Assembly (NCBI RefSeq): GCF_003001995.1 | Contig: NZ_PVNB01000030.1 | Location: forward strand, 1 to 45,263 | From: Orenia metallireducens | Lineage (GTDB): Bacteria > Bacillota > Halanaerobiia > Halobacteroidales > Halobacteroidaceae | Reading direction: 5' to 3' | Length of the DNA: 45,263 bases | Made by a program: the position numbers and the translations under genes | Shown here: positions 6,394 to 8,947 of the stretch, piece after piece | Numbering within the stretch: the stretch's first letter is position 1 | How the letters are laid out: every line of letters starts with the position of its first letter | The notes under the pieces: generated by a model | Seen by the model: only the letters and a program-made list of their open reading frames with translations | Databases searched by the model: none | Told to the model about the DNA's origin: nothing

Positions 6394-6420
6394 CATATTT
6401 TAATTGAGTTTTAATGGGTA

Positions 6421-6533
6421 TATTGCGACACTTTTTGAGTTTAAGTATAAGTCTAAGGATAGTTTAAGCAATGTTTTTATGATTTACTCAAACTTAATCT
6501 TAGCCTTATACTTAGTTGCAAAGTGTCGTAATA
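6421..6533. repeat. Palindromic intergenic repeat, copy 2
   Basis: The ends TATTGCGACACTTT (6421-6434) and AAAGTGTCGTAATA (6520-6533) are inverted repeats. The inner arms (about 6435-6471 and 6480-6518) pair through the GAGTTTAAGTATAAG / CTTATACTTA type sequence. The terminal 14-mers are nearly those of the copy at 1856-1963, while the inside is different. It lies in the convergent space between dacF and the antiporter. Confidence 0.7.
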
Positions 6534-6578
6534 TCTCTCTATTATACCAAATTCTATATTATTAAAAGATATTAATCA

Positions 6579-7760
6579 TCAATTGCTCTGAGGTTGACTC
6601 AATAACTTGGGAGCAAAATAATCAATCCCAATAGCTCCAAGAGGTGCAGTTAAGATAATTGACATTACTGCTAAAGCTAAGATTAACTCTCCATTAGGCA
6701 CTCCATTAGCTAAGGGGACAGCTCCGATAGCAGCCTGTACCGTTGCTTTGGGGATATAAGCAATTACACAAAAAACCCTCTCTTTGAAATTAAGGTAACT
6801 ATTAGTTGTTGAAATTAACACACCTATACTTCTAGCAATCAATCCAAGGAATATCAATAAGATGCCTAGCCAGCCTGCATGCAAGGCTACTTGCACCTTA
6901 ACAGCTGCTCCGATTAAGACAAATAAGAATATCTTAGCAGGAATCCATAATTTATTTAAAGCCAAAGATAAGTTAGTAGCCACCTCTTTGTTCTTCTCCA
7001 ACAACCAATATCCAATAGTCATCAGTCCTAATAGACTGGCTACTCCTAAGTAATCTCCTAAAATTGTAGTAAAGATTGCTACAACCATTAAGATGATAGT
7101 TTGGTAGCTCAGGTTGAGTTTATTATACCTTCTAAAGAATTTTTCTAAAAGATAGCCAATAATTAATCCTAAGAGAACTCCTCCAATAATTTTAATAGGG
7201 ATCTCTGTTAAGATGCTAAAGATTTGAACTTCACCACTTTTAAATAATCCTAAGAAGATACTGAAGATTGTGATAGCAAAGACATCATCAATAGAAGCTC
7301 CTGCTAAGACTAGAGTTGGTACCTCCTTATCCTTTCCTAGCTTCTTCTCTATTAACTGTAGCATTGATGGTACAATCACAGCTGGTGAGACAGCAGCAAT
7401 GATAAAGGCCAACATTCCTGCAGACTGCCAATTTAGCTTAAAGATATGGGTAGCTATTAAGAAGATGGCAGCTCCTTCTAATAATCCAGGGATGAAACTA
7501 AGCTTAAAGGCGGTTTTACCAATCTTCTTTAAGGTCTCCTTACTGATTCCTAATCCTGCTCTAAGCAGAATAATAATCAAGGCTAATTCTCTAATCTCCT
7601 GAGAGATACCCATTAATTCTTGACTTAACAATCCATAGCCTGATGGTCCTAAGATGATTCCTGCCAATAACATTCCTAACAAACTAGGTAGATTTAATCT
7701 TTCAAAGATGAATCCTAAAATTAGTCCAACAATTAAAATTAAAGCAATACTCAATAACAT
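6579..7760 (-). CDS. Cation:proton antiporter (CPA2-like), fluoride-riboswitch controlled
   Basis: This is a membrane protein of 393 residues with about 12 hydrophobic segments, starting with the CPA2 signature LNLPSLLGMLLAGIILGPSGYG and carrying the mid-membrane acidic motif LAGASIDDVFAITIFS typical of the Na+/H+ exchanger family. GGAGGAA just upstream supports the ATG at 7760. It is the only minus-strand gene in the window and is preceded by its own consensus promoter and a fluoride riboswitch with an overlapping terminator (7841-7930). Antiporters of this kind are known members of the crcB-motif regulon, so a role in tolerating fluoride, either by export or by adjusting ion and pH balance, is inferred. 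The transported ion is not shown by the sequence. Confidence 0.85.
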   Translation of the reverse strand: MLLSIALILIVGLILGFIFERLNLPSLLGMLLAGIILGPSGYGLLSQELMGISQEIRELALIIILLRAGLGISKETLKKIGKTAFKLSFIPGLLEGAAIFLIATHIFKLNWQSAGMLAFIIAAVSPAVIVPSMLQLIEKKLGKDKEVPTLVLAGASIDDVFAITIFSIFLGLFKSGEVQIFSILTEIPIKIIGGVLLGLIIGYLLEKFFRRYNKLNLSYQTIILMVVAIFTTILGDYLGVASLLGLMTIGYWLLEKNKEVATNLSLALNKLWIPAKIFLFVLIGAAVKVQVALHAGWLGILLIFLGLIARSIGVLISTTNSYLNFKERVFCVIAYIPKATVQAAIGAVPLANGVPNGELILALAVMSIILTAPLGAIGIDYFAPKLLSQPQSN

Positions 7761-7840
7761 TTTATTCCTCCTTAAATTAGTAATTAGTGATGAGTAGCAT
7801 AATAATATCAGCCATTGTATAGAAATAAATGGAAAATAAA

Positions 7841-7930
7841 AATAGCTTCTACTCCCTAAGAAGTAGAAGCTATTAGCCTAAAAGACGGTTTTGATATATC
7901 TAGATTATCAAGGTGAGCCTCATCACCAAT
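7841..7930 (-). ncRNA. Fluoride riboswitch (crcB motif) with intrinsic terminator
   Basis: On the minus strand the RNA begins GGTGATGAGGCTCACC (7927 to 7912): stem GGTGA/TCACC with loop TGAGGC. A small extra hairpin (TTGATA...TATCAA) follows, then AACCGTCTTTTAGGCTAATAGC and CTTCTAC. Loop bases GAGGC can pair with GCUUC in the UAAUAGCUUCUAC segment, which is the fluoride pseudoknot. The same 3' segment forms one arm of a 13-bp terminator stem (7862-7874 with 7841-7853) followed by TTTTATTTT. This competition is the usual OFF-state terminator design: fluoride binding would favour read-through into the antiporter gene. Confidence 0.9.
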
Positions 7931-7950
7931 TTTATGTAATTTATGTTGCT

Positions 7951-7979
7951 ATTATATTTACTTTTCTTAGCAAAGTCAA
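7951..7979 (-). promoter_or_regulatory. Sigma-A promoter for the riboswitch-antiporter transcript
   Basis: On the minus strand TTGACT (7979-7974), a 17-base spacer and TATAAT (7956-7951). The start site would fall about 10-15 bases before the riboswitch aptamer. Confidence 0.85.
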
Positions 7980-8041: not shown

Positions 8042-8947
8042 ATGATGATGAAATTATTAAAAAGGAGTATCATCTTGCTTGCTATAGTAATTTTAACAGG
8101 ATGTGGTCAACAAGGAACTCAGGGAGAAGAGCCTACAATTCAAGTTAAGTTGGTTGATGGTCAGATAAATAAGATAAATATAGAAGAATATGTAGCAGGA
8201 GTAGTTGCAGGGGAGATGAAGAAGGGGTGGCTCAAAAATGCCTATGCAGCCCAAGCTATTATTGCTAGAACCTTTACCCTAAAACGTCTAGAGGAGAATG
8301 GAAATAATACAATCAGTGCTAGACATGAAGAGGCTCAAGCCTATCGACCAGAGAATATTAGCTCTGAAATTAGAGAGGCTGTTAAGATGACTAGAGGGGA
8401 AGTAGCTACTTATCAAGATAAATATATTCAGGGCTGGTTTCATTCAAGTGCAGGGGGGCAGACTACCAGTGCTAAAGTAGGACTGGCTTATAAAGAAGCA
8501 GAGCCACCTTATGTACAAAGTGTTGAATCTCCCGATGATGCAGCTCCTAGAGATATTCAAAATTGGCAAGTTAGTATTGGAAGAGAAGAGATAGCAGTGG
8601 CTTTAGAAAAAGCAGGAGAGAGAATGACACAGATAAAGGATATTAAAGTTCTCAAAAGGGACAGCACAGGGAGAATAATTCAAATAGCAGTTATACATGA
8701 CCAAGGGAGTAAAGAGTTGCAGGGAGCAGAGTTTAGAACTTTAATCGGTCCTGATAAATTAAAGTCTACACTAATCAAATCTATTGAAAAATCTGGAGAT
8801 AAGTTTATTTTTACCGGCAGTGGTTATGGGCATGGAGTGGGGATGAGCCAATGGGGAGCTTATAAGTTGGCCAAAGAAGGTAAGACACCTGAAGAGATAG
8901 TCAATTACTACTTTAAAGATGTTAAGATAGTAAAGAAATGGGACTGA
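8042..8947 (+). CDS. SpoIID/LytB-domain lipoprotein
   Basis: The protein has 301 residues with a lipoprotein signal peptide ending in the lipobox LTGC (Cys21). The remainder is a SpoIID/LytB domain, including AGVVAGEMKKGWLKNAYAAQAIIARTF and the C-terminal GYGHGVGMSQWGAYKLAKEGK signature. SpoIID proteins are lytic transglycosylases acting on glycan strands stripped of peptides during engulfment; LytB-type relatives enhance other wall hydrolases. GGGGAGG at 8030-8036 supports the ATG at 8042. It is a stand-alone gene, not next to spoIIQ or spoIIID, so it is probably a paralogue rather than SpoIID itself. The lipid anchor places it outside the membrane. Confidence 0.87.
   Translation: MMMKLLKRSIILLAIVILTGCGQQGTQGEEPTIQVKLVDGQINKINIEEYVAGVVAGEMKKGWLKNAYAAQAIIARTFTLKRLEENGNNTISARHEEAQAYRPENISSEIREAVKMTRGEVATYQDKYIQGWFHSSAGGQTTSAKVGLAYKEAEPPYVQSVESPDDAAPRDIQNWQVSIGREEIAVALEKAGERMTQIKDIKVLKRDSTGRIIQIAVIHDQGSKELQGAEFRTLIGPDKLKSTLIKSIEKSGDKFIFTGSGYGHGVGMSQWGAYKLAKEGKTPEEIVNYYFKDVKIVKKWD

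Follow-up and report, generated by a model that had tools for sequence, protein, structure and literature searches.

A fluoride riboswitch-linked NHA-type antiporter in Orenia metallireducens as a candidate stand-in for Fluc and CLC-F

Introduction

More than 85% of surveyed bacteria carry a fluoride exporter, either Fluc (CrcB) or CLC-F, and Na+/H+ antiporters form the commonest class of riboswitch-linked genes after those exporters, an association that has been explained as pH homeostasis (PMC11139923). Fluoride riboswitches follow an ON logic in which a terminator competes with a pseudoknot, and bound fluoride keeps that pseudoknot from being broken by the terminator (PMC11077080). Here we describe a locus in a 45,263-nucleotide stretch of Orenia metallireducens DNA (contig NZ_PVNB01000030.1; hereafter ‘the window’) in which a fluoride riboswitch on the minus strand precedes a gene for an NHA-type antiporter.

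The closest described systems are the riboswitch-linked Na+/H+ antiporters of the Baker 2012 class (cited in PMC11139923) and the Clostridioides difficile operon CD0656-7 (PMC11477304), which likewise place an antiporter under a fluoride riboswitch. The present locus differs in consisting of a single gene with no CLC-F partner, in its assignment to the NHA/SLC9B branch, and in residing in a genome that lacks both Fluc and a canonical CLC-F. The pairing of riboswitch and antiporter, which the original prediction for this DNA gave as known, is indeed already published for Na+/H+ antiporters (PMC11139923). The new part is the distribution, a complementarity between antiporter and Fluc that we regard as a useful lead; within the open-licence literature searched, no study came to light in which such an antiporter was assayed for fluoride tolerance or its exclusion with Fluc was described.

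Results

The window was compared with 4227 Rfam families using cmscan, and positions 7936–7857 of the minus strand matched the fluoride riboswitch family RF01734 with 39.5 bits (gathering cut-off 34; E = 1.4e-7). A scan of the whole 4.10-Mb genome returned this match as the only one. The original prediction had called a fluoride aptamer from the folds and had proposed this covariance-model comparison among its checks, one that the aptamer passed; its coordinates for riboswitch and expression platform together, 7841–7979, were also right. The transcription unit, read 5' to 3', comprises the following features.

7951–7979, minus strand: candidate sigma-70-like promoter, TTGACT-17 nt-TATAAT, with 11 of 12 consensus bases (scan and position)
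7857–7936, minus strand: fluoride riboswitch aptamer (RF01734, cmscan)
7912–7927, minus strand: P1 stem (GGUG 7927–7924 with CACC 7915–7912) and its loop, which holds the 5' pseudoknot strand GAGGC (7921–7917)
7891–7911, minus strand: optional extra hairpin, UUGAUA...UAUCAA (prediction from the full leader fold)
7866–7870, minus strand: 3' pseudoknot strand GCUUC, common to the 5' arm of the terminator and containing a covarying pair
7841–7874, minus strand: intrinsic terminator hairpin with a 15-bp stem and a 4-nt loop, followed by a T run (folding energy)
7767–7773, minus strand: ribosome-binding site AAGGAGG (read from the sequence)
6579–7760, minus strand: gene for a predicted NHA-type (SLC9B-like, CPA2) cation/proton antiporter of 393 amino acids, with its ATG start at 7760

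The two pseudoknot strands form the five base pairs originally proposed, one of them a G-U pair. Among nine riboswitches of the order (eight ahead of this antiporter and one ahead of crcB), every cell of P1 and of the pseudoknot is paired (100%), and compensatory change is seen at one pseudoknot pair, which is A-U in five sequences and G-C in four. The extra hairpin, also part of the original description, appears in the predicted fold of the full leader and is variable, present in some relatives from the order and missing from others. The terminator (folding energy −21.2 kcal/mol, z = −7.4) includes GCUUC within its 5' arm, as had been claimed, and ends upstream of the gene. Judged from its sequence, the element is a canonical fluoride-activated transcriptional ON riboswitch. 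It shares with the Bacillus cereus crcB riboswitch the RF01734 aptamer consensus, P1, the pseudoknot, the opposition of a terminator arm to that pseudoknot and, by analogy, the ON logic; it differs in an additional junction hairpin of about 21 nt and in controlling an NHA antiporter instead of crcB.

The claim of a consensus promoter stood in part: the 11 matching bases are present, but as a scan result the match does not exceed chance (one found, 1.9 expected), and its one support is its position about 15 nt upstream of the aptamer. Beyond the riboswitch leader, a gene for a SpoIID-domain protein (window positions 8042–8947) diverges from it, and a similar neighbour recurs in both remaining genomes of the genus (L006 and L009).

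The controlled gene encodes neither a CRCB protein nor a CLC. It matches Pfam PF00999 (Na_H_Exchanger) with 154.8 bits and, below the cut-off of that model, TIGR00932 (CPA2). The best solved relative in a sequence search of the PDB is bison NHA2 (SLC9B2; E = 4e-47), with other solved families weaker (MjNhaP1, the next, at E = 6e-11; NapA at E = 4e-7). An AlphaFold model of the antiporter (predicted local distance difference test score 88.9) likewise ranked NHA2 first by Foldseek. We therefore place the protein, on sequence, among the CPA2 antiporters in the NHA/SLC9B branch, an assignment drawn from sequence and Foldseek because VIA Z scores put NHA2 level with NhaP proteins, so that structure comparison alone does not separate the two. 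The original description, a CPA2 antiporter rather than CrcB or CLC-F, is thus made more exact by the Pfam, PDB and Foldseek matches.

The antiporter shares with mammalian NHA2 (PDB 7p1i, 7b4l) its fold, about 31% identity, the DD motif and the PKATVQAA motif; unlike NHA2 it is bacterial, predicted to be regulated by fluoride, and devoid of the extra N-terminal helix region. In the sequence alignment D158-D159, E95, R310, K338 and T340 correspond to NHA2 D277-D278, E214, R431, K459 and T461, so that the E214-R431 salt-bridge pair is kept as E95 and R310, whereas NHA2 W456 is replaced by a tyrosine (Y335). Across 119 homologues, whether riboswitch-linked or not, the compared site residues do not vary, except at Y335 and, in two unlinked sequences, at D159; D158, D159, E95 and R310 are each invariant in all 84 riboswitch-linked homologues. 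A comparison of riboswitch-linked and unlinked homologues yielded no fluoride-specific residue signature. Bison NHA2 catalyzes electroneutral Na+(Li+)/H+ exchange (PMC8850199), and by analogy the residues at this site suggest that the bacterial antiporter exchanges Na+ (or K+) for H+ electroneutrally.

The next gene downstream of the antiporter, encoding a D-Ala-D-Ala carboxypeptidase, is convergent, and the transcription unit is therefore probably monocistronic. Between the two genes (window positions 6420–6534) lie nested imperfect inverted repeats with arms at 6442–6457/6499–6514 and 6420–6434/6520–6534. Similar repeats with the motif AAGTATAAG stand beside the CLC gene of the genome, and they may represent a dispersed element resembling a miniature inverted-repeat transposable element.

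Fluc (CRCB, PF02537) is absent from the genome, which is 99.96% complete. The only CLC in the genome has a glycine at the position of the gating glutamate and carries none of the three CLC-F signatures (GNNLI/GMGLI, GREGT/V and GEVTP), reading GLGTD, IGGLVG and AAIVDT at those positions; we accordingly rejected it as a CLC-F. Its best PDB match is a CLC-F, at a weak E value of 6e-6, and the genome-wide RF01734 scan placed no riboswitch near it. This protein (L023; G000:C3, approximately 99035–100290) and its relatives L019–L022 form a divergent CLC family within the taxonomic family of the window.

In the order, for which 13 genomes were compared, the antiporter is present in ten and Fluc in exactly the other three; no genome has both and none has neither. 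The exact probability of this split is 0.0035 if the genomes are independent. The three Fluc genomes belong to three genera and two families, and one genus holds both states (G001 with the antiporter, G002 with Fluc). No CLC-F-like CLC was found in the genomes of the order, four of which lack a CLC of any kind. The riboswitch precedes the antiporter in nine of the ten genomes that have it, the exception being G009, where a degenerate riboswitch ahead of the antiporter was looked for and none was found; in a further genome (G003) the riboswitch precedes crcB. Two of the nine riboswitches ahead of the antiporter (L009 and L010) score below the gathering cut-off, and a weak RF01734 match in G001 (L011, 24.8 bits) was dropped as probably due to chance.

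A sample of 293 Clostridia genomes, each at least 90% complete, gave the same pattern of exclusion. The antiporter (called by profile A1 at E values up to 1e-60) occurs in 48 and Fluc in 62, with no genome having both (Fisher p = 4e-6, treating genomes as independent). Riboswitches at cut-off in this sample number 77, of which 41 lie before the antiporter (39–161 nt upstream), 12 before Fluc, five before canonical CLC-F and 19 elsewhere. An exception to the CLC-F pattern is seen at G319:C19:77-2779, where a riboswitch-bearing NHA antiporter gene and a canonical CLC-F gene are divergent neighbours.

The loci of the 80 nearest antiporter homologues in a genome collection were first viewed with a local model (R1) and then all run with the Rfam model. 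A riboswitch is present at 52 of them (51 by RF01734 at cut-off, and L101 by R1 alone), nearly always directly upstream of the antiporter; at L082 and L086 a gene intervenes. The riboswitch-bearing loci include members of Bacillota, Fusobacteriota, Nitrospirota, Thermodesulfobacteriota, Spirochaetota and Elusimicrobiota, and the riboswitch label is clustered on the homologue tree. The closest relatives that bear names are halophilic Halobacteroidaceae.

Several of these loci have unusual arrangements. Tandem NHA antiporter genes at L053 (2174–4833) have a fluoride riboswitch between them that serves the second copy only, and two equal-scoring riboswitches 1.6 kb apart occur at L065 (2223–2290 and 3851–3918) in a Nitrospirae genome, the second of them before an NHA antiporter. 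The antiporters at L054, L058–L064, L094 and L096, loci labelled Desulfobacterales, Deltaproteobacteria and relatives, are longer at the C terminus by about 100 residues (roughly 490–570 amino acids in total).

Discussion

The antiporter occupies the same regulatory position behind a fluoride riboswitch as do Fluc and CLC-F, but is an unrelated protein for which fluoride transport is only a candidate activity. The exclusive distribution of antiporter and Fluc suggests that the two share a role, and fits replacement of Fluc better than assistance to it; conservation of the cation site favours cation/proton exchange. We propose, at about even odds, that the antiporter may serve as the main inducible fluoride defence of the cell, in place of Fluc or CLC-F, through cation/proton exchange that undoes the trapping of hydrogen fluoride (HF). 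The original prediction suggested some other means of fluoride resistance, an idea that gains weight from the lack of Fluc, from a CLC without CLC-F signatures, and from the exclusion of antiporter and Fluc in relatives.

By analogy with published relatives, the terminator hairpin would take the 3' pseudoknot strand when fluoride is absent, and transcription would stop ahead of the gene. Fluoride, as a Mg-F complex, would hold the pseudoknot, disabling the terminator and allowing expression of the antiporter. The protein would then exchange internal Na+ or K+ for external H+, and the entering protons would shrink the pH gradient that keeps dissociated HF inside as F−, allowing fluoride to leave as HF and thereby contributing to tolerance. 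Fluoride-acclimated yeast, as summarized in PMC11139923, tolerates a lower internal pH, which fits this proposal. Consistent with a stand-in role, neither Fluc nor a CLC-F-like CLC was seen in 45 of the 50 genomes with a riboswitch-linked antiporter, and two have a CLC-F-like CLC; in the published survey, by comparison, an exporter was present in over 85% of bacteria (PMC11139923).

A number of observations weigh against the proposal that the antiporter replaces the exporters. Fluc is present in three of those 50 genomes, a canonical CLC-F stands alongside the antiporter in one Clostridia genome, and the CD0656-7 operon of C. difficile combines CLC-F with an NhaP-type antiporter under a single riboswitch (PMC11477304); the antiporter can thus also supplement an exporter. 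In most genomes the classification of CLCs covered only the best-scoring CLC. The exclusion tests include no correction for phylogeny, so that their significance is overstated, and 183 of the 231 Clostridia genomes without Fluc are also without the antiporter, the absence of Fluc being common there. Finally, the review that explains such antiporters as pH homeostasis against acidification implies the opposite direction of proton movement (PMC11139923).

That published explanation is the alternative that survives best, and we nevertheless consider it unlikely. The antiporter would expel H+ in exchange for external Na+, countering acidification by HF as a matter of general pH homeostasis and leaving fluoride itself undiminished. 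The halophilic relatives in the Halobacteroidaceae, whose environment presumably provides a large inward Na+ gradient, would suit such a direction of exchange. A helper of this kind, however, predicts co-occurrence with an exporter, yet antiporter and Fluc exclude each other, and F− would stay trapped in the cell.

Alternatively, the antiporter might export fluoride itself, as an NHA-fold F−/H+ (or F−/cation-coupled) system and a third bacterial exporter class beside Fluc and CLC-F. The exclusion with Fluc resembles that of two alternative exporters, since CLC-F and Fluc also rarely co-occur (PMC11139923). For Drosophila Nha1, a member of the SLC9B family, H+-Cl− cotransport has been proposed (Chintapalli 2015, as cited in PMC9174904), and Pseudomonas putida owes part of its fluoride tolerance to a benzoate transporter (PMC13104614). 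Set against these precedents, the cation-binding aspartates and other NHA2 site residues are invariant, riboswitch-linked and unlinked homologues are indistinguishable at those residues, and a review of SLC9B proteins found that human NHA1 offers no basis for binding Cl− (PMC9174904). We rank direct F− transport as less likely than cation/proton exchange, and regard as improbable the broader idea that NHA antiporters behind fluoride riboswitches use the CPA fold for direct movement of F− in bacteria from several phyla that lack both Fluc and CLC-F.

It is more doubtful still that the antiporter has an accessory place in the fluoride regulon, with an unrecognized protein such as the divergent CLC as the true exporter. 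The weak similarity of that CLC to a CLC-F is opposed by the glycine at its gating-glutamate position, its lack of all three signatures, the absence of a riboswitch near it, and the four genomes of the order that have no CLC at all.

If the stand-in proposal is correct, the NHA antiporter would constitute a third protein solution for fluoride defence, acting either by undoing HF trapping through proton exchange or by direct export. Many bacteria without Fluc or CLC-F, among the Clostridia, the Halanaerobiales and other groups, may then rely on a fluoride-switched NHA antiporter. It would also place bacterial relatives of NHA2 in a physiological context, for a family whose ion selectivity is debated in animals.
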